Source: Dyella sp. OK004 (lineage in GTDB: Bacteria > Pseudomonadota > Gammaproteobacteria > Xanthomonadales > Rhodanobacteraceae). From it: 64,000 bases of DNA. Position numbers and translations under genes: made by a program. Location: the NCBI RefSeq assembly GCF_900114495.1, contig NZ_FOZI01000005.1:186001-250000 (forward strand). The letters are read 5' to 3'. The notes under the pieces are model-generated. The model saw nothing but the letters and a program-made list of their open reading frames with translations, had not been told where the DNA came from and searched no databases. Below, one piece after another: positions 3,846 through 55,632 of this stretch (positions are counted from its first letter, which is position 1; the number at the start of each line of letters is the position of its first letter).

Positions 3846-6830
3846 ATGATCGAAAGAGTGCATGGCGGGGCTTCGTGTCACCCGTTCGGGGCGCAGCAGC
3901 AGTTTTCCGGCGCGCGCCTGGCCGTTGCGGTGGCGATGGGCCTGGCCTTGATGTACGGGCCGGCGGCGTATGCGCAGCAGACGGATGCAGGCAACGGCGG
4001 CGCCCATTCGGCTGCCCCGGCGGATAGCGCGGCCAAGACCAAGACCAAGAAGAAACAGGGCGAGGCTGAGAAGCCGGTGCAGAATCTCACCGGCGTCACC
4101 GTCACCGGCGTGCGCGCCAGCCTGCAGTCGGCCCAGCAGTTGAAGCAGAACGCCGACCAGATCATCGACTCGGTCACCGCCGTGGATATCGGCGCGCTGC
4201 CCGACCGCAGCGTCACCGAGACCCTGCAGCGCATCAGCGGCGTCACCATCGATCACTTCATGGCACGCAACGACCCGGATCATTTCTCCGCCGAAGGCAG
4301 CGGCGTGATGATCCGCGGCATGACCCAGGTGCGCAGCGAGCTGAATGGCCGCGACGTGTTCAGCGCCAACTCCGGCCGCGGCCTGAGCTTCGAGGATGTG
4401 CCGGCCGAGCTGATGGCTGGCGTGGACGTGTACAAGAATCCGTCGGCCGAAATCATTGAAGGCGGCGTCGGCGGCACGGTGAATCTGCGCACGCGCCTGC
4501 CGTTCGATGCACCGGGCCGCGTGATCGGCTTTACCGGCGGCGTCAACGAGGGCGACTTCGCCAAGAAGAGCAAGCCGTCGATGTCATTCCTCTACAGCAA
4601 TGTGTGGAAGACCGAGAACCACGGTGAGTTTGGCGCGCTGTTCGATGTGGCGTACTCCGAGCTGGCCACGCGCTCGGACGGCATCCAGATGGAGCCCTAC
4701 GTCAAGCGCAGCGATGCCGCCGTGCTGAAAGGAACCAACTTCAGCAGCGTCTACGTGCCGGGTGGTTCGGACTGGCGCTCGCTGGACTTCCAGCGCCGCC
4801 GTATCGGCCTGGCCGGTGCGCTGCAATGGCGCCCGACCAAGAACCTGGAGCTGACCAGCCAGGTGTTGCGCTCGGACTACCGCATGCACTGGGACGAGTT
4901 CGGCGGCCTTTTCGGCGACAGCAGCAACAACGTGGTGCCGGCCAACGGCGGCACGTTCAACTACGACAGCAACGGCGTGTTCCAAAGCGGCGCGCTGCAG
5001 ACCGGCACGAACAGCGCTGGACAGCCGACCGTGCGCTTCGGCGCTGACCGCCGCTACTCCACCCAGCGCACGATCACCACCGACTGGTCCAACAGCCTTA
5101 AGTACAACATCAGCGACCAGATGGTGTTGTACGCGGATGCGCAGTTCATCAAGTCCACCAGCCAGACGCTGGACTTCACCGCTTTCGACGCGACCTACCT
5201 GCCGGGCATCACGCTGAGCGCACCCAACGGCGCCAAGCCTGTCGTCACGGTCAACCCTTCGTCTTACGCGCTCAATCCGGCGAACTATTTCTGGAACGCG
5301 GCGATGGACCACCATGAGAAAAACAAGGGCATCGAGCGCGCCCTGCGGCTGGATCTCGAATACAACTTCGAGGACAACAAGTGGCTGCGCTACGTGAAAT
5401 TCGGCGCGCGCGCTACCAGCCGTAGCGAGCTGAACAAAAGCAACGGCTACAACTGGGGCGTGGTCACAGACACTTGGGCCCAGATCAATACGCCAAGCGG
5501 GTTCGCGGATCTGGCCAACTACCTGCCAAATCTTTCCACACTGTATGCATACTCAAACTTCTTCCGCGGCAACGCCAAGCTTCCCTCGCAGCTTTACTTT
5601 CCCAGCTATGCCCTGGTGAGCAACTACCACTACGCCTACCAGCAATTGCACTCGGTGGGCGTGCCGTGGGGCTGGAGTCCGCGTGACATGTATCGCAAGC
5701 AGGACATCAACGATCAGAGCGAGAAGACCAAGAGCGTCTATGGCGTGCTGTACTTCGGCAACGATGAGGCGCTTGGTGTGCCGGTGGACGGCAACATCGG
5801 TGTCCGCCTGGTGCGCACGGACGTGGATGCCAATGGTTTTGGCCAGTATCCCGACCTGACCACCAGCGGCGTGGCCGATAGCCTCAAGGCTATCTACAAC
5901 GGCGCGTACTTCCCGCTGACGGGCCGTGGCCATTACAAGAATGCCTTGCCCAGCTTCAACCTGCGCTTCAAATTTACCGACAACCTGCAGTGGCGCCTGG
6001 CCGCATCCAAGGCGATGAGCCGTCCCGACTTCACCCAGCTGCAGCCGTTCCTGAACATGAGCGCGACACTCAATGCGGACAACACCGCCGTCACCAAATG
6101 GAATGGTACGGCTGGCAATCCGTCGCTCAAGCCGATGCGCGCCAACCAGTACGACACCGCGCTGGAGTGGTATTTCGCGCCGGCCGGCCAGCTGTACACC
6201 ACGCTGTTCTACAAGGATGTGCGCGACTACATCTCCAGCCAGACGCGCACCGAGACATACAACGGCCAGCCGTTCGAGGTGACGCGTCCGTACAACATGG
6301 GCAAGGGCAGGATCCGCGGCGGCGAATTCGGCTACTCGCAGTTCTTCGACTTCCTGCCGGGCTGGCTGAAGGGTTTCGGCGCGCAGGCCAACTTCACCTA
6401 TGTCGACAGCAAGGGCGGCACCAACACGGCGACCGATCCCTACTTCAACACCACCGTCACCGGCGTCACCCTTCCGCTGGAAGGTTTGTCCAAGCGCAGC
6501 TACAACCTGGTCGGCATGTACGAACAGGGACCATGGTCGGTGCGGCTTGCCTGGAACTGGCGCTCGCGCTACCTGCTCACCACCAGCGATGCGGCCACGC
6601 ACCTGCCGACCTGGGCGGATGACTTTGGCCAGCTCGATGGCTCGGTGTTCTATCGCATCAACAAGAACGTGCAGATCGGCCTGCAGACCAACAACCTCAC
6701 CAACGCCACCACCAAGGTGTTGATGGGGCCGACCAGCTATGCCGACGGCACGGTCGATCACCGCCTGTATACCCGCGGCTGGTTCATCAACGATCGCCGC
6801 TACGAGCTGGTGATGCGTGCAACGTTCTGA
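3846..6830 (+). CDS. TonB-dependent outer-membrane receptor, probable xyloglucan oligosaccharide importer
   Basis: 994 residues from ATG 3846. A TTG at 3840 is closer to the GGGAG box (3831-3835), so the start may be six bases earlier. A long basic n-region and hydrophobic core end at AYA-QQ near residue 43. A lysine-rich linker (about 64-75) precedes the plug, which opens with VTVTGVRASLQSAQ and DIGALPDRSVTETLQRISG, typical of the TonB-Xanth-Caul receptor subfamily. The barrel ends in the canonical terminal aromatic (MRATF). These receptors take up glycans and other large substrates using TonB energy. It heads a block of GH74, GH35, GH3 and GH31 enzymes, so xyloglucan oligosaccharides are the likely cargo (inference). 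Confidence 0.92.
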   Translation: MIERVHGGASCHPFGAQQQFSGARLAVAVAMGLALMYGPAAYAQQTDAGNGGAHSAAPADSAAKTKTKKKQGEAEKPVQNLTGVTVTGVRASLQSAQQLKQNADQIIDSVTAVDIGALPDRSVTETLQRISGVTIDHFMARNDPDHFSAEGSGVMIRGMTQVRSELNGRDVFSANSGRGLSFEDVPAELMAGVDVYKNPSAEIIEGGVGGTVNLRTRLPFDAPGRVIGFTGGVNEGDFAKKSKPSMSFLYSNVWKTENHGEFGALFDVAYSELATRSDGIQMEPYVKRSDAAVLKGTNFSSVYVPGGSDWRSLDFQRRRIGLAGALQWRPTKNLELTSQVLRSDYRMHWDEFGGLFGDSSNNVVPANGGTFNYDSNGVFQSGALQTGTNSAGQPTVRFGADRRYSTQRTITTDWSNSLKYNISDQMVLYADAQFIKSTSQTLDFTAFDATYLPGITLSAPNGAKPVVTVNPSSYALNPANYFWNAAMDHHEKNKGIERALRLDLEYNFEDNKWLRYVKFGARATSRSELNKSNGYNWGVVTDTWAQINTPSGFADLANYLPNLSTLYAYSNFFRGNAKLPSQLYFPSYALVSNYHYAYQQLHSVGVPWGWSPRDMYRKQDINDQSEKTKSVYGVLYFGNDEALGVPVDGNIGVRLVRTDVDANGFGQYPDLTTSGVADSLKAIYNGAYFPLTGRGHYKNALPSFNLRFKFTDNLQWRLAASKAMSRPDFTQLQPFLNMSATLNADNTAVTKWNGTAGNPSLKPMRANQYDTALEWYFAPAGQLYTTLFYKDVRDYISSQTRTETYNGQPFEVTRPYNMGKGRIRGGEFGYSQFFDFLPGWLKGFGAQANFTYVDSKGGTNTATDPYFNTTVTGVTLPLEGLSKRSYNLVGMYEQGPWSVRLAWNWRSRYLLTTSDAATHLPTWADDFGQLDGSVFYRINKNVQIGLQTNNLTNATTKVLMGPTSYADGTVDHRLYTRGWFINDRRYELVMRATF

Positions 6831-6875: not shown

Positions 6876-7034
6876 CTCTCCCTTCGGGAGAGGGTGCCGG
6901 TCCCACAGGGACTACTTTCGGGTCGCAGCGGGTGAGGGTTCGGGCGAAGTGCGATGGTGAAGACATTGAACATGTACTCACTACCGCGCTCCGCCCGAAC
7001 CCTCACCCCAACCCCTCTCCCGAAGGGAAAGGGG
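6876..7034. repeat. Inverted repeat pair between TonB receptor and GH74 gene
   Basis: Two inverted units: 6930-6946 (GGGTGAGGGTTCGGGCG) pairs perfectly with 6992-7008. Each is accompanied by a CTCTCCC-TTCGGGAGAG or CTCTCCCGAAGGG block. The right unit overlaps the 5' end of the GH74 reading frame. Sequences of the same type recur at 16.4, 55.7 and 62.0 kb. Confidence 0.8.
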
Positions 7035-9257
7035 CTCTGCGCATGGAGACTGGCACTCGCCGCGATGCTGCTATGCATCGCCGTTGCCGTCCACGCAAAC
7101 GACACCATCGCCTACCGCTATGCCAGCGTGCGCATCGGTGGTGGCGGTTTTGTCAGCGGACTTCTGTTCCATCCGCTGGAACGCGGCCTGTACTACGCGC
7201 GCACCGATGTTGGCGGGGCCTATCGCTGGGATCGTTCGTCGGCGCAATGGGTGTCGGTAACGGACTGGATCGAAGCGAAGGACGAGAACCTGCTGGGGAT
7301 CGACAGTTTCGCGGTCGATCCCGGCGATCCGGAGCGCGTCTATCTGGCCGGGGGCACCTACACCACGGAAATCGCCGGCAACGGCGCGATCCTGCGCTCT
7401 GTCGATCGCGGCAAACATTTCGAACGTGCGGACATGCCGTTCAAGCTGGGCGGCAATGAGCTGGGGCGCGGCAATGGCGAGCGGCTGGCCGTGGACCCCC
7501 ACGATGGCCGCGTGCTGTTCTTCGGTTCGCGCAGCGCTGGGTTGTGGCGCAGCGACGATCGCGGCGCGCACTGGGCCCGGATAGACAGCTTCCCCGCTGT
7601 GGCGACATCGCCCGCGGCGAGCGCGGAAAACAGCTGGCGGCGCCAGGCCATCGGCATCGTGTTCGTGGTGTTCGAGCCCGCCAGCGGTAAGCCGGGCAAG
7701 CCGACGCCGACGCTTTATGCGAGCGTGTCCACCCGCGAGACCAGCCTGTTCCGCTCCAATGATGGCGGGCGCAGCTGGAAAGCCGTGCCGGGCCAGCCGG
7801 CGGGCTTGCGTCCCAACCATATGGTGCGCGCCGGTGACGGCAGTTATTACCTGAGCTACGGCGACGAGCCCGGCCCCGATGCTATGCATGCCGGCTCGGT
7901 ATGGAAATATGAGCCTGCCGCACAGCGCTGGACCGACGTGACGCCGATGCCGCGCACAGCGCAGGACACTCAAGGCTTTGGCTGGGGCGCAGTAGCTGTC
8001 GATCCCCGCGATCCAAAGGTGGTGATGGCAGCCACTTTTTCGCGCTACACACCGCACGATGAACTGTTCCGCAGCACCGACGGCGGCGCTCACTGGCGTG
8101 CCGTGTTTCCGCACTCTGAATTCGATCACGGCACCACGGTATGGACGCGCGAGCACACGCCGCATTGGCTGGCCTCCATCGCCATCGATCCGTTCGATGC
8201 GGATCACGTGATGTTCGTCACCGGCTACGGCATCTGGTCGTCGCGCGATATGACTGCGTCCGATCGCGGCGGCACAGTGCACTGGACGTTCCAGGACCAG
8301 GGGCTGGAGGAAACAGTGGCGCTGGGTCTGATCAGTCCGCCGGAAGGTGCGCACCTGCTCAGCGCGCTCGGCGATCTGGATGGGTATCGCCACGACGATC
8401 TGGATACGGCCCAGTTGCAATTCGCCGCGCCGCCGCGTTACGCCAATAGCGAGAGCATCGACTATGCCGCAGCGAGGCCGGCGTTGATCGTGCGCAGCGG
8501 CTACCTGCGCAAGCCGTTCGGCGCCGCGGTCCGCGCCGCGTGGTCGCAGGATGGCGGCAAGCAGTGGAAAGCGTTCGCCAGCGAGCCGCCGGAGGGGCAG
8601 GGCGCGGGCAGCATCGCTATCGCGGCCGACGGCGGCACGGTGTTATGGGCGCCGAATCGAGCGCAGCATGTTTACCTCACCCGCGATATCGGCCAGCACT
8701 GGCAAGTGGCGGAAGGGCTGGGCGCGGGCATGCGCGTGCTGGCGGACCGAGTAGATCCGAAACGTTTCTATGCCTACGACCATAACTCCGGTGCCCTTGC
8801 CGCAAGCCGCGATGGTGGCGCACATTTCGCCGACATCGGCGGCGAGCTTGGCGCGGCGGCGAAGGGGCGGGGGCAGATGCGCGTGCAGGCCGCGCCGGAT
8901 AGGGCCAGTGAGTTGTATGTCGCCAGTCGCGAGGGCGAACTGCTGCGCGGTGACGACACCGGTCGTGTCATCAAGCGGTTGCCCGGGCTGACCGGTGTCG
9001 ATGCTTTCGGCTTCGGTAAAGCGACGCCGGGTCGAAGCGCACCCACTTTGTTCGTAGCCGGTCGCCTGCATGGTGCGCAGGGCATCTTCCGTTCCGCCGA
9101 CGATGGCGAGAGCTGGCAGCGTATCGACGATGCGGATCACCGCTATGGCCGCATCAGTCATCTCACTGGCGATCCGCGCGTGTTCGGCCGCTTTTACTTT
9201 GCTACCAGCGGGCGTGGGATTTTCTACGGCGAGCCGGCTGCAGAGGCGTCCCCATGA
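6954..9257 (+). CDS. GH74 endo-xyloglucanase
   Basis: 767 residues from the first ATG. Hallmarks of GH74 twin seven-bladed propellers are present: [75 protein letters not shown], and many BNR/Asp-box repeats (SxDxGxxW). GH74 enzymes cleave the beta-1,4-glucan backbone of xyloglucan at branched positions. The N-terminus is odd: residues 13-27 ([15 protein letters not shown]) are a translation of the intergenic repeat, yet the hydrophobic signal core ([16 protein letters not shown]) follows directly, so the repeat supplies the basic n-region. Starts at 6954 or 6972 are both possible (the latter has GGTGAAG about 8 bases upstream); Met38 alone would leave too short a signal. Its stop overlaps the GH35 start (ATGA). 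Confidence 0.9.
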
Positions 9258-10909
9258 AATCCATCAAACCTTTTTTCGGCCAGGGACTGTCCATGCGCTT
9301 ATCGTTTATCCGGCGCGCGCTGCTCGCGGCGTGCGCCTGTGTGTTCACGGGTTCCGTATTCGCGGCTGAGCTGCCGAAGGTCGTTAGCGATAACGGCCGC
9401 CATGCGCTATTCGTGGATGGCAAGCCGTATCTGATCCTCGGTGCGCAGGTGAACAACTCCAGCAACTGGCCGGACATGCTCGGCGAGGTGTGGCCGGCGA
9501 TCGAGCGGATGCAGGCCAATACGGTGCAGGTGCCGATCGCGTGGGAGCAGATCGAGTCGAAGGAAGGGCAGTTCGATTTCAGTTTTCTTGACACTTTGGT
9601 GGCGCAGGCGCGCGAGCATCGCGTGCGGCTGGTGTTGTTGTGGTTCGCCACCTGGAAGAACAACGGGCCGGCCTATGCGCCGTCGTGGGTGAAGCTGGAT
9701 AACCGCCGCTTTCCGCGCATGATCAGCCGCGAGGGCAAGCAGCTTGGTTCGCTGTCGCCGCATGCCGCGGCCACGCTGGAGGCGGATCGCAAGGCCTTCG
9801 TACAGCTAATGACGCATTTGCGTGCGCTCGATGGCGAGCAGCACACCGTCATCATGGTGCAGGTGGAGAACGAGTCCGGCACCTACGGCACCGACCGCGA
9901 TCACTCGCCCACTGCGGACGCGCTGTTCGCCGGCAAGGTGCCGGAGCCGCTGCTGCAGGCGAGCGGCAAGGCGGCAGGCAGCTGGAGCCAGGTGTTTGGC
10001 GTGGATGCGGCTGAGTATTTCCAGGCATGGTCGGTGGCGCACTACATCGGCCAGGTCGCCGCTGCAGGCAAGGCGGTGTATCCGCTGCCAATGTACGTCA
10101 ACGCGGCGCTGCGCGATCCGTTCAAGCCCGGCCTTCCCGGTGGCTATGCCAGCGGTGGGCCTACTGACAACGTGCTGCATGTTTGGAAAGCCGCGGCACC
10201 CGCGCTGGATCTGCTGGCGCCCGACATCTATCTGCGCGATTACCCGCGATACACCGCCGTGCTGGAGCGCTACGCGCGCAAGGACAATCCGCTGTTGGTC
10301 GCCGAGACCGGCAACGACAAGGTCTATGCGCGCTACCTGTACGCCGCGCTCGGCCATCGCGCCATCGGCTTCTCACCCTTCGGCATGGACTACAGCGGTT
10401 ACGCGAATTACCCGCTGGGCGCACGCAAGCTCGACGACGCCACGCTCGATGCATTCGCGGCCAACTATCGCGTGCTGGCGCCGATGGCCAGCGAGATCGC
10501 CGCCGCTGGTTACGCCAATCAGCTATGGGGCGCGGCCGAGCCGGAAGCCACGCACGAACAGACACTGGATCTCGGCGACTGGCAGGTGCATCTCGGCTAT
10601 GGCCAGTTGCAGTTCGGTGTGGAGCCGCCGCAAGGCAATGCGGAGCTCGACGGTGGCGTGCTGATCGCCCGCCTCGGTCCCGACGAATATCTGGTGACCG
10701 GCCGCAACGTGCGCGTGAATTTTTTTCCGGGCCGCGAACGCAAGGACATCCACTTTCTGCTCGATCGTGTCGAAGAGGGCCATTACGACCATGGCCGCTG
10801 GATCTTCCGTCGCCTGTGGAACGGCGACCAGACCGACTACGGTTTGAATTTCACCGGCCAGCCGCAGGTGCTGCGGGTGAAGCTGGCCACGTTGAGAACC
10901 GGTTCTTAA
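9254..10909 (+). CDS. GH35 beta-galactosidase with C-terminal DUF5597-type domain
   Basis: 551 residues. A signal peptide spans about residues 1-38; an internal ATG at 9293 would give a shorter, more conventional signal. The family motifs are clear: acid/base Glu207 in MVQVENES and probable nucleophile Glu351 in LLVAETGN on a TIM barrel, followed by a C-terminal domain resembling DUF5597. Proteins of this layout include Cellvibrio japonicus Bgl35A, which strips galactose from xyloglucan oligosaccharides. Starts with ATGA overlap to the GH74 stop and is followed after 8 bases by the GH3 gene, so it belongs to the same transcript. Periplasmic or outer-surface action is inferred from the signal peptide. 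Confidence 0.9.
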
Positions 10910-10917
10910 GGAACTTC

Positions 10918-19630: not shown

Positions 19631-19637
19631 GCGGGTG

Positions 19638-22177: not shown

Positions 22178-22186
22178 GGGCAGGGC

Positions 22187-37098: not shown

Positions 37099-37216
37099 TC
37101 CGGGCGCGGCATTCCGGCCGCGTGTCTTGCCACCACCACTGTTGCCCGAGGTTTTGTCATGTGTCGATCCGTTGCCTGCTGTCGAACTTGCCTTGGTCAG
37201 GTGGAGCACTGAGCGG

Positions 37217-40469: not shown

Positions 40470-41509
40470 AGCGTCTGCTGCTGTTGTTGCTGCTCGTGCC
40501 GGCGCTGGCGTTCGCCAAGGCGCCGAGCGCGATGTTCTACATGATGGGGTCGCAGAAATCGATCGACTCCTTCGTCGCGCATGCCGACAAGATCGATGTG
40601 CTGGTGCCCACCTGGTATGGCGTGGACGAGAACGGCCTGGTCTCGGGGCAGCCTAACGATTACGTGATGAAAATCGCTAAGGAACATCGCGTGCCGGTGA
40701 TGCCGATCCTGTCGGCCAATGGCGAGCGCGAGAAGTTTCATAAGCTGCTTGGTAACGTTACCGCGAAGAAGGCGATGATCGCGTCGCTGATCGAACAGGC
40801 GAAGCTGCACGGGTTCACCGGCTTCCAGTTCGACTTCGAAAACATCGCCTGGACCGACCGCGATGCGCTGACCTTGATGACCAAGGAAACCGCCGACGCG
40901 CTGCACAAGCACGGGCTGAAGCTTTCCATGGCGATCGTGCCGAATGCGCCGGGCTATGCCGGCGGCGGCGCGTTCTCCAAATGGATGTGGGAGTACTGGC
41001 GCGGCGCATATGACCTGAAGGCGCTGGCGCAGTCGCTGGATCTGGTCTGCCTGATGACCTATGACCAGCACACACGCTGGACCACACCCGGCCCGGTGGC
41101 CGGCATGCCGTGGACGATGGAGCACCTGGAGTACGCGCTGAAAGTGGTGCCCAAGGAAAAGCTTTCGCTCGGCATTGCGCTCTACGGCTATCACTGGTTC
41201 GCGGGCAACCCGGTGAAGGACGACGGCAAGGAGTCGTCGAACATCTCGGCGAGCTACATCGATGCGGACGAATCGTTTCCGCTGGCCAAGCAGTTCGGCG
41301 TGACGATGCAGTGGGACCCGGTGGAGCACGAATCCTGGTTCTACTTCTATCGCGACGGCATGCGCGAATGGGTGTTCCTGCCGGATGCGCAGGCGTTCCG
41401 CGACCGCTACGAGGTAGTGAAGAAATACGGCCTGCAGGGCTTCTGCTCGTGGGTGCTCGGGTCCGAAGACCCGAAGGTATGGGACGAGCTGCCGGAGGCA
41501 CAGCGATGA
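40466..41509 (+). CDS. GH18-like exported glycosidase with reduced catalytic motif
   Basis: 347 residues starting at GTG 40466 (GTGA overlap, GGGGGTG upstream). Short signal peptide ending AFA-KA (about residue 17). Chitinase-like barrel of the YaaH/chitobiase type: VLVPTWYGVDENG, GFTGFQFDFENI, LSMAIVPNAPG, DLVCLMTYDQHTRW, LSLGIALYGYHWF. The GH18 DxxDxDxE motif is reduced to D123-F-E125, with Thr and Gln at the first two Asp positions; both residues needed for substrate-assisted catalysis remain. Possible roles are cleavage of the GlcNAc-GlcNAc core of N-glycans or chitobiose hydrolysis. Its place between fucosidases and GH20 supports core processing. Confidence 0.82.
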   Translation: MKRLLLLLLLVPALAFAKAPSAMFYMMGSQKSIDSFVAHADKIDVLVPTWYGVDENGLVSGQPNDYVMKIAKEHRVPVMPILSANGEREKFHKLLGNVTAKKAMIASLIEQAKLHGFTGFQFDFENIAWTDRDALTLMTKETADALHKHGLKLSMAIVPNAPGYAGGGAFSKWMWEYWRGAYDLKALAQSLDLVCLMTYDQHTRWTTPGPVAGMPWTMEHLEYALKVVPKEKLSLGIALYGYHWFAGNPVKDDGKESSNISASYIDADESFPLAKQFGVTMQWDPVEHESWFYFYRDGMREWVFLPDAQAFRDRYEVVKKYGLQGFCSWVLGSEDPKVWDELPEAQR

Positions 41510-43722: not shown

Positions 43723-43818
43723 GGTACCGGTTGTTTTTAGGAGTGGTGGTTTTTAAACAGACGCGGTTCCGTTCGTTACATCCCTCAGGGGAGGGCCAAC
43801 ATCATGGGGAGGATAGTC

Positions 43819-46947: not shown

Positions 46948-47565
46948 ATGAAAATGGCAAAAGCTTTTATGGTTTCGATCCTGGTGGCTGCTGGAGTTCT
47001 AAACATCACACCCGCTTCGGCGGCGCACTTCACGGTAGGTGGAAGCCTTGATGGCAATTTCCAGATCGCTGGCACGGTGAGCTTCTGGGCATCATCGGGG
47101 CCTGGTTCACCGCAGACCTTCTTTCCTGATCAAAGCGATGTTGACACCCCTGCGGACAACGGCATGCCCATCACTGTGCTTCCGAATCCAGACTCTGCAG
47201 CTAATTTCTACAACTGCAACATAACCATGCAAGGAAACGTAACGAATGGGGCCGCTTACATCACCTCGATGAGAGTTATTGGGACCACGCCGGTGTGCAA
47301 TCGCATAGAGCAGTCCTTGTCTTCGCAAGGTCACTTTCCGTGGAAAATGCATGCGCTTTCTCAGCCTGGCGCTGCCACGGCGATGATAAAGGGCTGGGTC
47401 TTCTACTCGGCTGGTTTATTCAGCTGCTCAAATGCGACCGTTATGATCAATCTGGGTGGGGGCTACGCTTCTTTTGACCAAGTTGCCGGAACGGGGGGCT
47501 GTCATGTGACGACTTTCGGAGATGCCTCCGTGGTATCTCCCTCGGTAGATGTCGTCTACCCATAG
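46948..47565 (+). CDS. Secreted hypothetical protein of atypical composition
   Basis: 205 residues; AGGAG 7 bases before ATG 46948. Signal peptide about 1-25 (ASA-AH). The mature protein is Gly/Ser/Thr/Asn-rich with four cysteines (FYNCNI, PVCNRI, FSCSN, GGCHV) that could form two disulfides. The pattern Cys...G...C...LPW-like (HFPWKM) faintly recalls PraB-type secreted proteins, but I do not claim that family. Its base composition (about 50-53% GC by eye) is clearly lower than its neighbours, suggesting recent acquisition. It sits between the receptor and the third fucosidase, behind the hairpin, so it is likely its own transcription unit. Confidence 0.75.
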   Translation: MKMAKAFMVSILVAAGVLNITPASAAHFTVGGSLDGNFQIAGTVSFWASSGPGSPQTFFPDQSDVDTPADNGMPITVLPNPDSAANFYNCNITMQGNVTNGAAYITSMRVIGTTPVCNRIEQSLSSQGHFPWKMHALSQPGAATAMIKGWVFYSAGLFSCSNATVMINLGGGYASFDQVAGTGGCHVTTFGDASVVSPSVDVVYP

Positions 47566-47655: not shown

Positions 47656-49017
47656 ATGCTATTTCGTCATCTTTCTCGACTCACGTTTGTGTGTGTGTTC
47701 ACTTTGGTGCTAGGTGGTCGTGTGCTTGCACAGACGGCTGGCGAATTGCGACCCTCGCCGCAGCAATCGCACTGGCAGGATCTGGAATTCGGCGTGATCG
47801 TGCATTTCGGCACCAACACCTTCCTCGACCGCGAGTGGGGCGATGGCAAGGCCGACCCCAAAGTGTTCAACCCTGATCGCGTCGATGCCGCTCAATGGGC
47901 GCGCGCCAGCCGTGCGGCGGGTGCGAAGTACATGGTGATGGTCGCTAAGCATCACGACGGCTTCGCGCTGTACCCGACTGAGCAAAGCAACTATTCGGTG
48001 AAAAGCAGCCCGTGGCAGAACGGCAAAGGCGATCTGGTGCGCATGGCTTCCGATGCCGCGCGTGCGGAAGGGCTGGAATTCGGCATCTATCTGTCGCCGT
48101 GGGATCGCCACGAGCCACGCTATGCGAACAGTAAGGCCTATGACGCCTATTACCTCGCGCAGATGGACGAGCTGGTGCAGCACTATGGTCCGCTGACCGA
48201 GTGGTGGCTGGATGGCGCTGGCAGCGGCGGTCATGTCTACGACTTCAGCAAATATCTGGAAGAGCTGCGCACCTACCAGCCGAACGCGATGGTGTTCGCC
48301 GATATGGCGCTGTTCGAGTACGGCGACATCCGCTGGGTGGGTACCGAGGACGGGCACATCCGTGGCGAGAACTGGAATGTGATCGACCGTCACGGCTATT
48401 TGCGCTGGCGGCCGGTGGAAGTGGATACGCCGCTGCACAAGCTGCACTGGTTCTGGCACCCGGACGACGAAGCGACGCTGAAGAGCGTCGCCGAGCTGAT
48501 GGATATCTGGGAGAACAGCATAGGGCGCGGCGGCCAGCTGATGCTGGGCATCGCGCCGGATCGCCACGGCCTACTGCCCGACGCCGACGTGAAGCGGTTG
48601 GAAGAATTCGGCAAGGCGGTGCAAACGCGCTATGGGGACGCCGCCAATCTGGCACGCAAGCACGTCAAAGCCGATCCCGAAGCGGAGCGCGCGCTTGATG
48701 GCGACCGCGATACGTTCTGGTCAGCGCCGGAAGGTTCGCATCACGCGGTGCTCGAAATGGATCTTGGCCGCCCGGTGACCTTCGACCGCACGCTGAGCAT
48801 GGAATGGCTCGACGCCGGCCAGCAGGTCCGCAACTATGCGGTGGAGATCTGGGACGGACACGCCTGGAAAGCGGTGGCGCATGCCGAGGCGATCGGGCAT
48901 ATGAAGGTCGATACCTTTGCCCCGGTCACAGCACAGAAAGTGCGCTTGCATATTCTGTCCAGTGTGGGCACGGCGCGCATCCGCGAATTCCAGGTGTTCG
49001 ACGGCCGCGCCCGCTGA
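47656..49017 (+). CDS. GH29 alpha-L-fucosidase, GH29-B-like, with discoidin-like domain
   Basis: 453 residues; AAGGTGG 5 bases before ATG. Signal ends VLA-QT near residue 26. The barrel is of the shorter GH29-B kind: FGVIVHFGTNTFLDREWG, MVAKHHDGFALYPTEQSNYSV, IYLSPWDRHEP, nucleophile Asp186 in EWWLDGAGSGG, and MLGIAPDRHGLLP. The last 120 residues (RALDGDRDTFWS, MDLGRPVTFDRT) resemble an F5/8 type C domain. GH29-B enzymes favour alpha-1,3/1,4 fucose, the linkages of Lewis a and plant core fucose, which fits an N-glycan block. Only 30 bases separate it from the beta-mannosidase. Confidence 0.9.
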   Translation: MLFRHLSRLTFVCVFTLVLGGRVLAQTAGELRPSPQQSHWQDLEFGVIVHFGTNTFLDREWGDGKADPKVFNPDRVDAAQWARASRAAGAKYMVMVAKHHDGFALYPTEQSNYSVKSSPWQNGKGDLVRMASDAARAEGLEFGIYLSPWDRHEPRYANSKAYDAYYLAQMDELVQHYGPLTEWWLDGAGSGGHVYDFSKYLEELRTYQPNAMVFADMALFEYGDIRWVGTEDGHIRGENWNVIDRHGYLRWRPVEVDTPLHKLHWFWHPDDEATLKSVAELMDIWENSIGRGGQLMLGIAPDRHGLLPDADVKRLEEFGKAVQTRYGDAANLARKHVKADPEAERALDGDRDTFWSAPEGSHHAVLEMDLGRPVTFDRTLSMEWLDAGQQVRNYAVEIWDGHAWKAVAHAEAIGHMKVDTFAPVTAQKVRLHILSSVGTARIREFQVFDGRAR

Positions 49018-49047
49018 GTATCGATCGTGACGACAAGGAACATGTTC

Positions 49048-51711
49048 ATGCAGCGAAGCCATCCGATCACGCGCCTGCAATACCTGCTGGCGGTCACTCT
49101 TCTGTTGGCCGGTGGCCACGCAACGGCCGCGCCGCTCGCCACCCAGGTGCTGCAAAGCGGCTGGCAGTTCCATCTGGCAACGGGATCGGCTGCGGCCAAG
49201 GGCCACCCGGAGGCCGCCGAATGGCAAGCGGCTACGGTGCCCGGCAGTGTGCAGACCGACTTGCTCGCAGCCGGGGTGATCGGCGATCCGTTCTATCGCG
49301 ACAACGAGGCGCGGCTGCAATGGATTGGCCTGGCGGACTGGGACTATCGCCTGAGCTTCAAGGTGGATGCGGCCACGCTCAAGCATGAGCATGTGGAGCT
49401 GGTGTTCGACGGTCTGGATACCTTCGCCGACATGTCGCTCAACGGCCGCAAACTGCTTGCCGCGGACAATATGTTCCGGCGCTGGCGGGTGCCGGTGAAG
49501 GGCGTGCTGCGTGCGGGCGACAACCGGCTGGAAGTGCGCCTGCATTCGCCCATCGCGCGCCTGCTGCCGTGGCTGCTCAAGCAGCCTTATGCACTGCCGG
49601 GTGAATTTGATTCGGCCTTCGGCGACGAGCCCAAGGGCAAGCAGACCGCCAATTACCTTCGCAAGGCTAACTACCAGTACGGCTGGGACTGGGGCCCGCG
49701 CTACGTCACCCTTGGCATCTGGCAGCCGGTAAAGCTGGAGAGCTGGGATCGCGCACGCCTCGCCGATTTCCATATCGCGCAACAGCACGTTGACGCTGAA
49801 ACGGCGGAGCTGCGTGCGGAGACGACGGTGCAGGCCGATCAGGCCGGCAAGGCTGAGCTGGCGGTGAGCTGGATCGCACCGGACGGCAGCCGCCACGATG
49901 CAACGCAGGAGGTCGAGCTGCGCAAGGGCGACAACACGCTCAACCTGCCGATCCGCATCGAGCAGCCGCAACGCTGGTGGCCAGTGGGCTATGGCCCGCA
50001 GAACATGTATCGCTTCGAGGCTACGCTCAGTAGTAACGGCGAGACCTTGGCCAGCGCGGAACGCAGCACGGGCCTGCGCAGCGTGGAGCTGCGTCGCGAC
50101 AAGGATGCCTGGGGTCGCGGCTTCGCGTTCGTGGTGAACGGCGTGCCGATCTTCGCCAAGGGCGCCAACCTGATTCCGTTCGACAGCTTCCCGACCCGTG
50201 TTACGCAGGACGGTATGGCGCAGATCCTGCGTTCGGCGCGCGACGCCAACATGAACATGCTGCGCATGTGGGGCGGCGGCCATTATCAGAGCGACGCTTT
50301 TTACGAGGAGGCCGACAAGCTCGGCCTGATGATCTGGCAGGACTTTATGTTCGGCGGTGCGATTCCGCCGTATGACGAGGCCTATCGCGAGAACACCCGC
50401 ATCGAGGCGGTGGAGCAGGTCACGCGGCTGCGCGACCATCCCAGCATCGTGCTCTGGTGCGGCAACAACGAAGTGCAGACCGGCTGGGAGGCCTGGCCGG
50501 ATCGCGAGAAGTTCCGCCAGTCGATTTCCGCCGAAGAGCGCGCAAAGGTGGAGCAGGGCATGAAGACCCTGTTTGGTGAAACTCTGCGCAACGTGGTGCA
50601 CCAGTACACGCCCGATGTGCCGTACTGGGCCAGCTCGCCCAGCACCGATTACGAGGGGCCGGCCAACCAGCTCACCGACGGCGACTACCACTCGTGGAGC
50701 GTCTGGTCCGGGTCGAAGCCGATCGAGGACTACCTCATGAGCACGCCACGCTTCCAGTCCGAGTACGGCCTGCAGTCGTTTCCGGTGCTGGCGACGGTCA
50801 AAGCCTTCGCCGCCGATGAAGACATGTCGCCGAATTCGCCGGTGATGCGCGCGCACCAGAAGTTCGCCAATGGCGACGGCAACGACCGCCTGCTGTTGTA
50901 TATCCGCAAGTACTACGGCGAGCCGAAGGACTTCGCTTCCTTCGTCTACCTCAGCCAGGTGATGCAGGCCGAAGGCATCGAGCTGGCGGCGGAGCACCTG
51001 CGCAGCACGCGGCCGCAGGCGATGGGTTCGCTGTACTGGCAGTTGAACGATGTGTGGCCGGGCGCCTCGTGGTCGAGCGTGGATTACTTTGGACGCTGGA
51101 AGGCGCTGCAGTTCCATGCGCGCCGCTTCTATGCGCCGGTGCGCGTGGCGGCGATCCATCGCGAAGGGCATAGCGACGTGTTCGTGCTGTCCGACCGCAC
51201 CGAGCCGTTCCAGGCCACGTTGCGCAGTCGCGTGATGAATATGGAAGGCAAGGTGCTGCGTGAGCGCAAGCAGTCGATCAAGGTAGCCCCGCTGGCCAGC
51301 ACCAAGCTTGCCAGTCCCACCGACGCCGAACTGCTGCATGGCGCTGACCCGCGCAAGACCTTCGCGGTCTACGAACTGCTCGACAGCAAGGGCACGTTGT
51401 TGTCGCGGCATCTGCTGTTTGTGCAGCCGCCGATTGCGCTGCAACTGCCCGATCCCGAGCTGAAGGCGGAACTGCGCGACAACGGGCAGGGCATGGTGCT
51501 GGAAGTCAGCGCCGGGCGCCTTGCGCGCGAAGTGTGGGTGGACTTCGGCGGGCTCGATGCCACCGTGGAAGACAACGCTTTCGATCTGCTGCCCGGCGAG
51601 AAGCGGGAACTGCGCGTGGACAGCCGCGAAAACCTCGATGCCCTGCGCGGCGCGTTGCGTGTACGTTCGCTGGCGGGCGCGACGCAACCGGTGACGGAGA
51701 AAAAACCATGA
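49048..51711 (+). CDS. GH2 beta-mannosidase
   Basis: 887 residues from ATG 49048, which has AAGGA 8 bases upstream; ATG 49042 and GTG 49027 are earlier in-frame options. Signal peptide ends ATA-AP (about residue 27). GH2 layout: jelly roll, immunoglobulin-like domain, barrel with acid/base Glu475 in CGNNEVQTGWE and nucleophile Glu572 in FQSEYGLQS, then C-terminal domains. LQWIGLADWDY, GWDWGPRYVT and MWGGGHYQSDAFYEEAD are beta-mannosidase hallmarks. It removes the beta-1,4-mannose of the N-glycan trimannosyl core. The stop overlaps the GH125 start. Confidence 0.93.
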   Translation: MQRSHPITRLQYLLAVTLLLAGGHATAAPLATQVLQSGWQFHLATGSAAAKGHPEAAEWQAATVPGSVQTDLLAAGVIGDPFYRDNEARLQWIGLADWDYRLSFKVDAATLKHEHVELVFDGLDTFADMSLNGRKLLAADNMFRRWRVPVKGVLRAGDNRLEVRLHSPIARLLPWLLKQPYALPGEFDSAFGDEPKGKQTANYLRKANYQYGWDWGPRYVTLGIWQPVKLESWDRARLADFHIAQQHVDAETAELRAETTVQADQAGKAELAVSWIAPDGSRHDATQEVELRKGDNTLNLPIRIEQPQRWWPVGYGPQNMYRFEATLSSNGETLASAERSTGLRSVELRRDKDAWGRGFAFVVNGVPIFAKGANLIPFDSFPTRVTQDGMAQILRSARDANMNMLRMWGGGHYQSDAFYEEADKLGLMIWQDFMFGGAIPPYDEAYRENTRIEAVEQVTRLRDHPSIVLWCGNNEVQTGWEAWPDREKFRQSISAEERAKVEQGMKTLFGETLRNVVHQYTPDVPYWASSPSTDYEGPANQLTDGDYHSWSVWSGSKPIEDYLMSTPRFQSEYGLQSFPVLATVKAFAADEDMSPNSPVMRAHQKFANGDGNDRLLLYIRKYYGEPKDFASFVYLSQVMQAEGIELAAEHLRSTRPQAMGSLYWQLNDVWPGASWSSVDYFGRWKALQFHARRFYAPVRVAAIHREGHSDVFVLSDRTEPFQATLRSRVMNMEGKVLRERKQSIKVAPLASTKLASPTDAELLHGADPRKTFAVYELLDSKGTLLSRHLLFVQPPIALQLPDPELKAELRDNGQGMVLEVSAGRLAREVWVDFGGLDATVEDNAFDLLPGEKRELRVDSRENLDALRGALRVRSLAGATQPVTEKKP

Positions 51712-53150
51712 GTACCTCGCGCCGCGACATGCTGAAGCTGATGTCCTTCGCGTTCGGCGCTGCGGCGCTTGGTCGTGCGCGACCCGGCTGGGCCGCATCG
51801 GGCGCGCGCTTCGTGAGCAAGCGTCCGCCGGTGGGTAAGCGCAAGTTCACCAGTGCGGCGGTGGAGCAGTTGATCGCGCGCACCAAGGCGCGCATCGCTG
51901 ATCCCGAACTGGCCTGGCTGTTCGAGAACTGCTTTCCGAACACGCTCGACACCACGGTGGAGCTGGGCACTCTGCGCGGCAAGCCGGATACCTTCGTGGT
52001 CACTGGCGATATCGACGCGATGTGGCTGCGGGATTCCTCCGCACAGGTCTGGCCCTACGTGCCGCTTGCGGCCCAGGACGAAGACCTGCGCCGCCTGTTC
52101 CGCGGGCTGATCCGCCGTCAGGCGGTATGCATTGCCATCGATCCTTACGCCAATGCCTTTCTGCCCGATCCGACGGCGAAAACCAATCTGGACTGGGCCC
52201 AGCACGACGCGACCGACATGCGCCCCGGTGTGGCCGAGCGCAAATGGGAGATCGATTCGCTGTGCTATCCGGTGCGGCTGGCCGCGGCCTATTGGAAGGC
52301 CACCGGCGATCGCACGCCGTTCGACGACGACTGGCGCGCCGCGATGCGTCTGGTGGTGGCGACGTTCCGCGAGCAGCAGCGCAAGCACGGGCCGGGGCCG
52401 TATCACTTCCAGCGGCGGTCGGAGATCCCGACGGAAAGCCAGTTCCTTGGCGGCTATGGCAATCCGACGCAGCCGGTGGGGCTGATCCATTCGATGTTCC
52501 GTCCCTCCGACGACGCCTGCCTGTATCCCTTGTTCATTCCTGGCAACCTGTTCGCCGTGTACGCACTACGCGAACTGGGGCCAATGACGCTCGCACTGTT
52601 CGACGACAAACCCTTCGCTGAGGAATGCAAGGCGCTGGCCGATGAGGTGGAACATGCCGCCGAGACGCACGGCGTGATGCGCGACGAACACGGCGATGAG
52701 GTCTGGGCCTATGAGGTCGACGGTTATGGCAATCAGTTGTTCATGGACGATGCCAATGCACCGGGTCTGCTGAGCCTGGCGTATCTGGGCTGCTGTCCGC
52801 TGGACGACGCGCGCTATCGCCGCACGCGGGCGCGGGTATGGAGTACACACAATCCGTACTTCTTCGCCGGCAAGGCGGCTGAAGGTATCGGCGGCCCACA
52901 CGAGGGCCTGCGCATGATCTGGCCAATGTCGATCATGATGCGCGCCTTCACCAGCCGCGACGATGCCGAGATCCGGCAGTGCCTGCATTGGCTGAAGACC
53001 ACGCATGCCGGCACCGGTTTCATGCACGAGGCTTTCGATCAAGACGATCCGGCGCATTTCACCCGCGTGTGGTTCGCCTGGGCCAATACCTTGTTCGGCG
53101 AGCTGATCGCCGGACTGGCAGAGCGCAAGCCAGCGCTGCTGCACGGCTGA
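51708..53150 (+). CDS. GH125 exo-alpha-1,6-mannosidase, Tat-exported
   Basis: 480 residues from ATG 51708 (ATGA overlap, GGAG about 9 bases upstream). The N-terminus has a twin-arginine motif SRRDMLK and hydrophobic core ending near WA-AS (residue 30), suggesting folded export. GH125 features: TGDIDAMWLRDSSAQVWPY, KWEIDSLCYPVRLA, RSEIPTESQFLGGYGNP, HSMFRPSDDACLYPLFIPGN and the acidic GFMHEAFDQDD near the end. Family members cleave non-reducing alpha-1,6-mannose. It works with GH92 and GH2 to dismantle the mannose core. Confidence 0.92.
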   Translation: MSTSRRDMLKLMSFAFGAAALGRARPGWAASGARFVSKRPPVGKRKFTSAAVEQLIARTKARIADPELAWLFENCFPNTLDTTVELGTLRGKPDTFVVTGDIDAMWLRDSSAQVWPYVPLAAQDEDLRRLFRGLIRRQAVCIAIDPYANAFLPDPTAKTNLDWAQHDATDMRPGVAERKWEIDSLCYPVRLAAAYWKATGDRTPFDDDWRAAMRLVVATFREQQRKHGPGPYHFQRRSEIPTESQFLGGYGNPTQPVGLIHSMFRPSDDACLYPLFIPGNLFAVYALRELGPMTLALFDDKPFAEECKALADEVEHAAETHGVMRDEHGDEVWAYEVDGYGNQLFMDDANAPGLLSLAYLGCCPLDDARYRRTRARVWSTHNPYFFAGKAAEGIGGPHEGLRMIWPMSIMMRAFTSRDDAEIRQCLHWLKTTHAGTGFMHEAFDQDDPAHFTRVWFAWANTLFGELIAGLAERKPALLHG

Positions 53151-53196
53151 GGTTCTGGCCGACGTTTATTTTTGTTTCGCTACCGGAGTGCAATCC

Positions 53197-55632
53197 ATGG
53201 TGACACGCAGGCGTTTCCTGCAAGGCGCAGTGGCCGCGGCCCTGCTGGGCAACGGGCTCAATCCTTTCACCGGTATCCCGGCCGCGCGGGCCGCAGGCGC
53301 ATCGCCCGCCGGTGGCGCGGCGGATGCGGTGACGGGTGTGTCGCGCTACGTAGATGTGTTCGTCGGCACCGGCGGTCATGGCCATACCTATCCGGGCGCC
53401 ACGATGCCCTTCGGCATGGTGCAGCTCAGTCCCGATACCTATAACGCGCAGTGGGATGCGTGCTCGGGCTATCACGAGGGCGACGGTTCGATCATGGGTT
53501 TCTCGCATACCCATCTGAGCGGCACCGGCGCGAGCGACATGCTCGATGTACTGGTGATGCCAGGTACCGGACCGGTGCAGCTGAAGCCCGGCGATCGCGA
53601 ATACAAAGGCGTGAATTACCGCTCGCGCTACGACGGCGTGCCGCCGACTAATGACGCACCGACCGCGAGCAACCCGATCGAACGTGGCTACCGTTCGCGC
53701 TACGACCGCGCGGACGAACATGCGGTGCCGGGCTATTACCGAGTGCTGCTAAAGGACTACGGCGTGCTCGCTGAGCTCACCGCGACCCAGCGCGCCGGCA
53801 TACATCGCTACACCTTCCACAACAAGGGCGAAGGTCATCTGCTAATCGATTTCGCCCATGGCTATCGTGACGAGCCAGGCAAGCCGACCAAGGTCAGCGA
53901 CGCGACCCTGCGGCTGGTCGGGAAGGACACCCTGGTGGGCGGCCGTCGCGTGCATCAGTGGGCGAATGGACGCTACCTCTATTTCGCGATGAAGCTGTCG
54001 CGGCCGTTCGATCAAGCCACGCTTTATAGCGGCGACGCACCGCTGGCGACGGGCGAGGCCAAGGGCAACGACCTCAAGGCCGTGCTGCATTTCAAGGATG
54101 CGCACAAGGCGCCCTTGCTGGTGAAGGTGGGCATTTCCGCGGTGGATGTCGAGGGTGCTCTGCGCAATCTCGACGCCGAGATTGCGGAGTGGGACTTCGA
54201 TGGCGTGCGCCATGCCGCGGCGGAAAGCTGGGAGCACGAGCTGAGCCGTATCCAGATTGAAACGCCGTCGGATGATGTGCGGCGGATTTTCTATTCGTCG
54301 CTGTATCACACCATGATGGCGCCGACCTTGTTCAGCGACGTGGACGGCCGCTATCGCGGCATGGATCTGGCTGTCCATCAGCTTTCCGAGGGTGCGCACA
54401 ACTACAGCACCTATTCGCTGTGGGATACCTACCGCGCGCTGCATCCGCTGTACACGTTGTACCAGCCGGAACGCGTGCCCGATCTGGTCAACGGCCTGCT
54501 GCGCATGGCGGCGGAAAGCCCCGATGGCCCGCCGGTATGGCCGCTGCAAGGGGTGGAGACCGGCTGCATGATCGGCTATCACTCGGCGGTGGTGGTCAGC
54601 GAAGCGGTTGCCAAAGGCTTTCCCGGCATCGATGCCAAGCAGGCCTGGCCTCTGTTCCGCAAGCGTGCGTTTGAAGACGACTACCGCGGCCTGCCGTTCT
54701 ATCGGAAGCAGGGCTATATCCCCAGCGACAAGGAAGGCGAGGCGGTCAGCAAGACACTTGAATACGCCTACGACGACTGGGCGCTCTCGCATCTTGCAGA
54801 TGCTGCCGGAGCTACCGAGGACGCGAAGAAACTGCGTGAGCGCTCGCGCAACTACCGCAACGTATTCGACAAGAAGTTGACCTTCGTTCGCCCGCGCGGC
54901 AGTGATGGAAAGTGGCTGGAACCGTTCGATCCGCGCGGCATGGGGCATTCCAAGCAGTGGCGCGATTTCACCGAATCCAACGCTTGGCAGGCCACCTTCC
55001 TCAACCAGCACGACGTGTATCACTACGCGGAACTGTTTGGTGGCGAGCCGGCGTTCGAGCACAAGTTGGATGAGCTGTTCCACACCAGCTCCGCACTGCC
55101 GGCCGATGCGCCGCCGGATATCGCCGGTATGGTTGGCCAGTACGCGCACGGCAACGAACCCAGCCATCACGTCGCCTACCTGTATGCCTACACCGGTGCG
55201 CACCACAAGACACAGGCGCGCGTGCGCTCCTTGCTCACCACCATGTACAAAGCCGAACCCGACGGCCTCGCCGGCAACGAAGACTGCGGACAGATAAGCG
55301 CGTGGTATGTGATGAGCGCACTGGGTCTGTATGCGGTGGACCCGGTGAGTACGCACTACGTGTTCGGCAGCCCGCTGCTCGATCGTGCGGAGATTCGGAT
55401 GGACGACAAGCGGCTGGTGGTGGAGACGCATGGCAATGGGCCTGATGCGCCGTACATCCAGTCGGTGAGTTGGAATGGCCAGCCGTGGAGCAAGAGCTGG
55501 ATCAGCCATGCAGAGCTGGCCAAGGGCGGCACGCTCAGTTTTCAAATGAGCAGCACGCCGAATAAAGCGTTCGGTGCGGCGCCGGCGGATCGGCCGCCGT
55601 CATTTGGGAACGTGGCGGGGAAGATTGCGTAA
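53197..55632 (+). CDS. GH92 exo-alpha-mannosidase, Tat-exported
   Basis: 811 residues from ATG 53197, with GGAG 8 bases upstream; a GTG at 53188 is inside that box. N-terminal TRRRFLQG is a strong twin-arginine motif. GH92 signatures: FVGTGGHGHTYPGATMPFGM, CSGYHEGDGSIMGFSHTHLSG, FYSSLYHTMMAPTL, SLWDTYRALHPLYTL, GNEPSHHVAYLYAY, and the catalytic Glu in GNEDCGQISAWYVMSALG. GH92 enzymes are calcium-dependent inverting exo-mannosidases acting on N-glycan alpha-1,2/1,3 linkages. Last gene of the N-glycan block; repeats follow. Confidence 0.95.
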   Translation: MVTRRRFLQGAVAAALLGNGLNPFTGIPAARAAGASPAGGAADAVTGVSRYVDVFVGTGGHGHTYPGATMPFGMVQLSPDTYNAQWDACSGYHEGDGSIMGFSHTHLSGTGASDMLDVLVMPGTGPVQLKPGDREYKGVNYRSRYDGVPPTNDAPTASNPIERGYRSRYDRADEHAVPGYYRVLLKDYGVLAELTATQRAGIHRYTFHNKGEGHLLIDFAHGYRDEPGKPTKVSDATLRLVGKDTLVGGRRVHQWANGRYLYFAMKLSRPFDQATLYSGDAPLATGEAKGNDLKAVLHFKDAHKAPLLVKVGISAVDVEGALRNLDAEIAEWDFDGVRHAAAESWEHELSRIQIETPSDDVRRIFYSSLYHTMMAPTLFSDVDGRYRGMDLAVHQLSEGAHNYSTYSLWDTYRALHPLYTLYQPERVPDLVNGLLRMAAESPDGPPVWPLQGVETGCMIGYHSAVVVSEAVAKGFPGIDAKQAWPLFRKRAFEDDYRGLPFYRKQGYIPSDKEGEAVSKTLEYAYDDWALSHLADAAGATEDAKKLRERSRNYRNVFDKKLTFVRPRGSDGKWLEPFDPRGMGHSKQWRDFTESNAWQATFLNQHDVYHYAELFGGEPAFEHKLDELFHTSSALPADAPPDIAGMVGQYAHGNEPSHHVAYLYAYTGAHHKTQARVRSLLTTMYKAEPDGLAGNEDCGQISAWYVMSALGLYAVDPVSTHYVFGSPLLDRAEIRMDDKRLVVETHGNGPDAPYIQSVSWNGQPWSKSWISHAELAKGGTLSFQMSSTPNKAFGAAPADRPPSFGNVAGKIA

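Follow-up and report, generated by a model that had tools for sequence, protein, structure and literature searches.

We analyzed a 64 kb stretch of the 4.96 Mb genome of Dyella sp. OK004 (labeled G000, contig 2; hereafter, the window), which carries adjoining sets of genes for the use of xyloglucan, L-fucose and N-glycans. The window likely holds two independently controlled nutrient loci side by side: a plant N-glycan locus at 26514-55632, predicted to be controlled by fucose, and a xyloglucan locus at 3846-25054, predicted to be controlled by xylose. Comparison of genomes and promoters suggests that the fucose and N-glycan genes form one old, co-controlled unit, with the xyloglucan genes as a separately controlled neighbor. 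The adjacency of all three modules was particular to this genome in our sample and probably resulted from rearrangement. An initial annotation had read the three modules as one unit, in which fucose is a common product and perhaps a common inducer.

Gene identities were obtained by Pfam, NCBIfam and PDB (nearest solved structure) searches; because the family matches were strong, the gene families found in the window are not due to chance. These searches bore out the gene content and order that the initial annotation gave for 3846-55632, and added to its list the IclR regulator, a mutarotase, a glucokinase-family kinase, a serine hydrolase and a small open reading frame (ORF). The order at 3846-25054 is TonB receptor, glycoside hydrolase families GH74, GH35, GH3 and GH31 (+ strand), XylR (- strand), then XylA, XylB, XylF, XylG and XylH (+ strand). 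At 26514-55632, IclR (- strand) is followed by FucP and the mutarotase (+ strand), the fucose catabolic genes (- strand) and a divergent run from the kinase to GH92 (+ strand). The fucose pathway had been called complete, which holds for the non-phosphorylating route: FucM, dehydrogenase, lactonase, dehydratase, 2-keto-3-deoxyfuconate (KDF) dehydrogenase and hydrolase are present, several assigned by family and neighborhood. NCBIfam equivalog matches for the hydrolase, lactonase, short-chain dehydrogenase/reductase (SDR), aldo/keto reductase and dehydratase were below cut-off.

Linkage of the modules was assessed in 167 genomes of the family, evenly drawn from a larger group, by searching for six markers. 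Fuconate dehydratase was present in 55 of the 167 genomes, GH125 in 98, IclR in 55 and XylH in 35. FucP, counted at 480 bits or more, was found in 55 genomes out of 87 with any match at cut-off, and GH74 in 38 genomes at 51 places, some of them paralogs of approximately 40% identity (50 places were used). Two markers were considered linked when no more than 50 kb apart; draft fragmentation can only lower these linkage counts. In addition, the window proteins were mapped onto sequence flanking the dehydratase in each of the other 54 genomes, which in most cases extended 20 kb in both directions where contigs permitted. To count as a glycosidase relative, a match within 25 kb of the fucose genes needed at least 35% identity and had to span more than 35% of the query.

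The arrangement of a plant N-glycan locus coupled to fucose genes is genuine and conserved. FucP was located within 7 kb of the dehydratase in 45/55 genomes; 54 of the 55 dehydratase genomes, plus one genome outside this set, had IclR above cut-off. At least one relative of GH29, GH18 or GH20 was near the fucose genes in 48/55 fucose-positive genomes, and relatives of all three were near them in 34/55 genomes and 8/12 genera, many of the GH20 matches being only 37-40% identical and possibly other hexosaminidases. Among the seven genomes without a near glycosidase, G131 and G151 had the fucose genes on short contigs and only 5 kb of that side was fetched for G028; G011, G008, G032 and G060 showed no GH29, GH18 or GH20 relative at the 25 kb range. 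GH29c was directly behind iclR on the same strand in 15/55 genomes, and dehydratase and GH125 were linked in 14/52. GH74 was within 25 kb of the fucose genes in 1/55 genomes, most stretches reaching only 20 kb each way.

A comparison of six genomes of the genus, this one included, gave a similar result. The fucose operon and the kinase-to-GH92 operon were syntenic in five of the six; the sixth (G019) lacked all six markers. No second GH29 copy was seen in G067, and only G000 had the small ORF, no counterpart being mapped in the blocks of its congeners. The iclR-fucP-fucM genes were approximately 40-50 kb from the fucose operon in G052, G067 and G080; in G039, iclR-fucP was on a separate contig. 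Ten ORFs examined in the G080 gap included another GH31, a TonB receptor, a weak GH5 match, an aldose epimerase and a sugar transporter. Four genomes from another family of the order, probably Xanthomonadaceae (of 18 hits outside the family), kept the fucose genes and the regulator, without these glycosidases in the 18 kb fetched.

The xyloglucan genes behaved differently. GH74 and XylH were linked to each other in 11/15 genomes, but dehydratase and GH74 in only 3 of the 21 genomes having both, dehydratase and XylH in 1/18, and GH74 and GH125 in 1/32. All three congeners carrying the xyloglucan-xylose block (G052, G067 and G080) had it intact (receptor, GH74, GH35, GH31, XylR and XylABFGH) but elsewhere in the genome; GH74 and XylH were not found in G039, of the same genus. 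Where the assembly had one to three contigs, dehydratase and GH74 were at their closest 31 kb (G128), 93 kb (G122), 332 kb (G161) and 2.4 Mb (G081) apart. In G080, the dehydratase was 427 kb from a GH74 paralog and 2.9 Mb from the GH74 ortholog. Dehydratase, GH74 and GH125 were all present in 20 genomes and were found together only in G000.

Conserved promoter elements point to the same division. Footprinting was done separately on the iclR-fucP gap (52 genomes) and on the sequence preceding the aldo/keto reductase gene (54 genomes). A probable IclR operator, ATATGAA-N7-TTCATAT, was found both in the gap and at the divergent promoter that separates the fucose operon from the N-glycan operon. 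When palindrome models with spacers of 3-12 were compared, spacer 7 was the best in both sets (means 21.75 and 22.55; next best, 18.37 and 18.67), and the joint model was AcATATGAA-N7-TTCATATgT. Window sites scoring at least 14 were located at 27410, 35732, 35823, 58123 and 58136, against a Markov expectation of 0.03 per 64 kb (30 simulations). Sites at this threshold were detected in 50/52 iclR-fucP gaps (all except G008 and G060) and within the first 400 bases of 46/54 dehydrogenase promoters; the misses were G144, G010 and six genomes of genus g24, and a whole-block scan found the dehydrogenase-side site in G144 and G010. Each of the 12 genera having fucose genes had at least one such site.

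Circularity does not appear to explain this agreement. A model built from all 52 iclR-fucP gaps alone found sites of at least 12 in 46/54 sequences of the other set, compared with 0.5% of Markov controls. Models from either set built without genus g1 and the close genus g3 ranked 27410, 35732 and 58123 as the top three sites of the window, and 35823 as the fourth. Strong sites also occurred at places outside the training sets: by our own tally, 15 genomes had one ahead of a further kinase unit and 3 had one ahead of the N-glycan receptor. In the other family of the order, the operator was found at the iclR-fucP gap in 4/4 genomes and on the dehydrogenase side in 3/4. G032 had two more sites of 17 between fucP and the fucose operon, one of them preceding a TonB receptor that weakly resembled the xyloglucan one; no GH74 was found in G032. 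Control of the fucose-N-glycan locus by this operator is a well-supported prediction.

Two overlapping dyads (21.7 and 14.3) make up the sites at 58123-58160, immediately ahead of a MarR-type ORF (58159-58626). They may form an operator through which MarR regulates its own gene, similar in sequence to the IclR motif, or may be a further target; they were set aside as a probable MarR operator.

A different element was found on the xyloglucan side. No IclR-type site of at least 12 was detected in the fetched xyloglucan blocks of seven genomes (G000, G079, G128, G080, G067, G052 and G120); the best IclR-model score was 6.4 in window positions 1-27000 and 11.3 at the xyloglucan blocks of the other genomes. 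Exact ATTTCGYAATTGYGC occurred twice in the window, upstream of the xyloglucan receptor (3676) and between xylR and xylA (18251), and not once in 100 shuffles; with 2 mismatches allowed, 6 of 100 shuffles held two matches. Its core, ATTTCG(C/T)AATTG, was present upstream of the xyloglucan receptor in 7/7 genomes and upstream of xylA in all six of those with xylA in the fetched stretch. Its position between xylR and xylA implies that XylR may bind it. Xylose-type control has been proposed for the xyloglucan locus of Xanthomonas citri (PMC13282271).

Fucose as an inducer of the xyloglucan block was rejected, since IclR-type sites were sought there in these seven genomes and no good one was predicted. 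This result bears directly on the idea that a single island handles all three substrates, with L-fucose as the product and inducer they share, a reading we regard as quite improbable. The three modules are contiguous in G000, fucose decorates both xyloglucan and plant N-glycans according to published descriptions (PMC10154615, PMC8245568), and GH74 is 30-35 kb from the fucose genes also in G079 and G128, so that the neighborhood seems to have at least two origins. However, the modules were together in only one of the 20 genomes with all three markers, so the expected co-conservation across the family did not appear. No IclR-type site of at least 12 was found at the xyloglucan module even in the three genomes where it adjoins the fucose genes, leaving no regulatory element common to all three modules by sequence prediction, and the xyloglucan receptor carries the xylA-type element instead. 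What remains of the single unit is its fucose and N-glycan part, with its linkage and shared predicted operator. The xyloglucan module regularly lay apart in relatives, whereas the N-glycan module did not.

From the gene content, its conservation and the conserved DNA elements, we infer the following mechanism for two separately controlled loci. The IclR-type regulator would bind the dyads at the iclR-fucP gap and at the divergent promoter, from which the L-fucose catabolic operon would be expressed in one direction and the kinase, two GH29, GH18, GH20 and TonB receptor genes in the other, with GH29, GH2, GH125 and GH92 behind. Glycans would be imported through the N-glycan receptor and presumably trimmed in the periplasm. 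Released L-fucose could enter through FucP and be converted to pyruvate and L-lactate by the non-phosphorylating route. Fucose, or an acid derived from it, may relieve a repressing IclR protein, in which case fucose-freeing and fucose-burning enzymes would rise together. The xyloglucan locus would be run by XylR through the element shared by the receptor promoter and the xylR-xylA gap.

How the two loci came to be adjacent is a separate question. In G079 and G128 (genus g18), the xyloglucan block was 30-35 kb from the fucose genes on the opposite side, beyond GH20, and GH125 was far away or on another contig; in G128 the linked block included XylR, XylA and XylB. This opposite-side placement implies that the adjacency probably has two or more origins. 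It is seen in two lineages in a set of 21 genomes, against approximately 0.3 expected from a rough estimate (80 kb of 5 Mb). A dispersed intergenic repeat of approximately 180-350 bp, with a core like that of repetitive extragenic palindromes (REP-like), was present in both orientations at 1446-1797, 16755-16930, 29226-29499 and 62003-62336. It was also found in the flanks (L088, L089), and a copy was beside lldD in G052 (L060). The copy at 29.2 kb occupies the fucM-lldD gap, where G052, G067 and G080 hold approximately 40-50 kb of other genes.

Recombination between such repeats is a plausible means of juxtaposition. It might have placed the xyloglucan block here by chance, giving adjacency without function; we give this about an even chance, and it is compatible with separate control of the two loci. 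Repeat copies are present at several borders, including the fucM-lldD gap, and the GH3 between GH35 and GH31 and the serine hydrolase between xylH and iclR were seen at these places only in G000, with no counterpart in G052, G067 or G080. However, because the repeat recurs in the flanks, copies at block borders are expected anyway, and the occurrence of adjacency in two lineages exceeds the number reckoned for chance. Repeats as specific borders were rejected as proof, since the flanks also hold copies.

Alternatively, a shared enzyme activity could have preserved the adjacency. The GH29a and GH29b genes are tandem duplicates (identity 84% in one 300-base stretch and 69% in another), and their nearest solved structures were 7ljj/7snk (exo-alpha-L-galactosidase/fucosidase), then 4ni3. 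We take 7ljj/7snk to be BpGH29 and 4ni3 to be FgFCO1. A network study grouped the N-glycan enzyme NixE with BpGH29 and FgFCO1 in a cluster that includes enzymes reported to free fucose from xyloglucan, such enzymes being assigned to its clusters 2 and 3 (PMC11189522). No GH95 was found in the xyloglucan module, and the sole GH95 match of G000 was a partial one on another contig (39.8 bits; Pfam cut-off, 27 bits). Since this match is weak and partial, GH29a and GH29b are good candidates for defucosylation of xyloglucan, if G000 carries it out. Among the 21 genomes with GH74 and fucose genes, GH95 scored at least 171 bits in 10 and at most 55 bits in the other 11, including G000, a split chosen after the scores were seen.

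It is therefore conceivable, if unlikely, that the loci are regulated separately but GH29a and GH29b serve both xyloglucan oligosaccharides and N-glycans, a bridge in metabolism rather than in regulation, compatible with separate control, that would preserve the adjacency. The duplicated fucosidases resemble a group reported to be active on xyloglucan (PMC11189522), and linkage of xyloglucan and fucose genes occurred only among genomes with weak GH95 (3/11, versus 0/10 with strong GH95). However, this association was not significant (one-sided 0.124); G080, G067, G101 and five more genomes had only weak GH95, yet were unlinked; and the G000 match passes the Pfam cut-off, so that a distant GH95-like enzyme may exist. 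A broader version, in which the xyloglucan block was repeatedly drawn beside the fucose-N-glycan island where GH95 was lost, the duplicated GH29s of the island taking over defucosylation, we consider just as doubtful.

Several observations weigh against two independently controlled loci as described here. Six genomes of genus g24 had no site of at least 14 at the dehydrogenase promoter. Because the strong site at 58123 (21.7) stands ahead of a MarR-type gene, the motif is perhaps not specific to IclR. A loose pattern (up to 2 mismatches) matched 19 places in the whole Dyella genome, compared with 20 in a reversed control, and six of these places outside the window, when fetched, gave a best model score of 13.1; as the loose pattern is not enriched, no genome-wide regulon can be claimed. 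No operator was seen before GH29c-GH92, so membership of these genes in the fucose regulon would depend on read-through. A dyad match with 3 mismatches is present at 3416-3436, inside a cation-efflux gene approximately 0.4 kb before the xyloglucan receptor, with a full-model score of at most 3.2. In cross-tests of the XylR element, models built without G000 ranked the other promoter second (18.9 and 15.3), with Markov maxima of up to 19.0 and 18.3; this second site being within the Markov range, the case for the element rests on its exact conservation. Finally, the neighbors in G079 and G128 hint that adjacency is not pure accident.

Features of the two loci are listed below.

Table. Genes and predicted regulatory elements of the window.
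Feature	Position	Strand	Basis or remark
Candidate XylR-type element ATTTCGCAATTGTGC	3676..3690	+	Upstream of xyloglucan TonB receptor
TonB-dependent receptor, xyloglucan module	3846..6830	+	Pfam; TIGR01782, 655 bits
GH74 xyloglucanase	6954..9257	+	Pfam; nearest solved structures include xyloglucan hydrolases
GH35-type beta-galactosidase, DUF5597 domain	9254..10909	+	Pfam; CjBgl35A among nearest solved
GH3 with PA14	10906..13443	+	Family match
GH31 alpha-xylosidase	13440..16307	+	Pfam; nearest solved 7kmp, 2xvg
XylR, periplasmic-binding-like domain and AraC-type helix-turn-helix	16968..18146	-	Pfam
Candidate XylR element ATTTCGCAATTGCGC	18251..18265	+	Between xylR and xylA
XylA xylose isomerase	18314..19630	+	NCBIfam, above cut-off
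XylB-type FGGY kinase	19635..21173	+	Pfam
XylF, XylG, XylH sugar ATP-binding cassette (ABC) importer	21170..25054	+	Family matches
Serine hydrolase, beta-lactamase family	25085..26656	-	Between xylH and iclR
IclR-family regulator, proposed fucose regulator	26514..27332	-	Pfam; in 54/55 fuconate dehydratase genomes at cut-off
Predicted IclR operator, iclR-fucP gap	27410..27434	+	Score 23.6
FucP L-fucose:H+ symporter	27499..28806	+	NCBIfam, above cut-off
L-fucose/L-rhamnose mutarotase-type (FucM)	28808..29161	+	PF05336
FMN-dependent L-lactate dehydrogenase (lldD)	29554..30696	-	NCBIfam
L-fuconate dehydratase	30711..32114	-	Nearest solved 1yey, E 4e-232
Diketo-deoxyfuconate hydrolase type, FAA hydrolase family	32080..33117	-	Family match
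SDR, 2-keto-3-deoxyfuconate 4-dehydrogenase type	32960..33706	-	Activity assigned by family and neighborhood
L-fuconolactonase type, amidohydrolase	33703..34629	-	Family match
Aldo/keto reductase, L-fucose dehydrogenase type	34575..35735	-	Pfam; true start probably downstream
Predicted IclR operator 1, divergent promoter	35732..35756	+	Score 24.9
Predicted IclR operator 2, divergent promoter	35823..35847	+	Score 17.6
Glucokinase-family sugar kinase, N-glycan operon gene 1	36097..37098	+	Pfam
GH29a fucosidase	37127..38821	+	Pfam; PDB
GH29b fucosidase, tandem duplicate of GH29a	38748..40469	+	Pfam; PDB
GH18, YaaH-like kind	40466..41509	+	Pfam; PDB
GH20 hexosaminidase	41506..43722	+	Pfam
TonB-dependent receptor, N-glycan module	43804..46734	+	Pfam
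Small secreted-looking ORF	46948..47565	+	Without Pfam match; between N-glycan receptor and GH29c
GH29c with F5/8 type C domain, alpha-1,3/4-fucosidase type	47656..49017	+	Pfam; nearest solved
GH2, beta-mannosidase type domains	49027..51711	+	Pfam
GH125 alpha-mannosidase	51708..53150	+	Pfam
GH92 alpha-mannosidase	53188..55632	+	Nearest solved 7zgm, plant-N-glycan alpha-1,3-mannosidase

As its nearest relatives are alpha-1,3/4-fucosidases, GH29c would fit the antennary fucose of plant N-glycans. Similarity of GH92 to the plant-N-glycan-specific 7zgm may indicate activity on N-glycans bearing xylose and core fucose, but this is a lead only. Scans of 36000-55999 for sigma-70 promoters and terminators gave nothing above shuffles. 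The serine hydrolase matched 48 NCBIfam families and fell short of the cut-off in all 25 that were listed. Elsewhere in the genome, at G000:C3:496464-498680, there is another, divergent GH74 with 40% identity to that of the window.

The N-glycan module resembles the Nix cluster. We take COG3858, the group of NixF, to be the YaaH-like GH18 kind. The Nix cluster of Xanthomonas campestris and X. citri, in which NixF is listed as COG3858, is described as trimming plant N-glycans sequentially and has in common with the Dyella module a TonB receptor, GH29, a GH18-type hydrolase, GH92 and further hydrolases (PMC5700972, PMC10154615). The Nix-type set present in the window comprises a TonB receptor with GH29, a GH18-type hydrolase, a hexosaminidase and mannosidases; a NixL-type (GH35/COG1874) beta-galactosidase had no match among the N-glycan module genes. 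Unlike the Nix cluster, the Dyella module is divergent from, and predicted to be co-controlled with, L-fucose catabolism.

The xyloglucan block is similar to known xyloglucan utilization loci (XyGULs). That of X. citri is likewise reported to contain a TonB receptor, GH74, GH31 and GH35, with adjoining xylose isomerase and kinase genes (PMC8245568), whereas the Dyella block has no GH95 in the module and does have a GH3. As the Xanthomonas systems are described, xylose import uses a major facilitator superfamily (MFS) transporter in X. citri and an ABC importer in Dyella, and XylR is of the LacI kind in Xanthomonas and of the AraC kind in Dyella. GH31, GH35 and a TonB receptor are shared with the XyGUL of Cellvibrio japonicus, whose CjXyl31A and CjBgl35A were among the nearest solved structures; by its published description that locus has GH95 and no linked endo-xyloglucanase, while in Dyella GH74 is linked and GH95 is not (PMC4285296).

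The fucose genes correspond to the published non-phosphorylating L-fucose route 3, with the same FucM, dehydrogenase, lactonase, fuconate dehydratase, KDF dehydrogenase and hydrolase leading to pyruvate and L-lactate; compared with route 3 as published, the Dyella pathway additionally has glycosidases and a predicted IclR operator linked to it (PMC11199699). A fucose-responsive regulator, FUR1 of Trichoderma reesei, has been reported to act over fucose catabolism, fucosidases and other hydrolases (PMC12370193); it is fungal and offers an analogy only. At title and abstract level, with subscription papers largely outside, the literature yielded no N-glycan locus coupled to a fucose regulator in this family.

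The predicted operator would couple the release of fucose from plant N-glycans to fucose catabolism, and the map also marks the xyloglucan neighbor as outside the predicted fucose control. If the duplicated GH29s do serve as a shared hub, one fucose-controlled fucosidase pair would act on two plant polymers under two separate inducers. If the predicted control is true, N-glycan loci regulated by their own terminal sugar would represent a simple logic for glycoprotein sensing in plant-associated bacteria.

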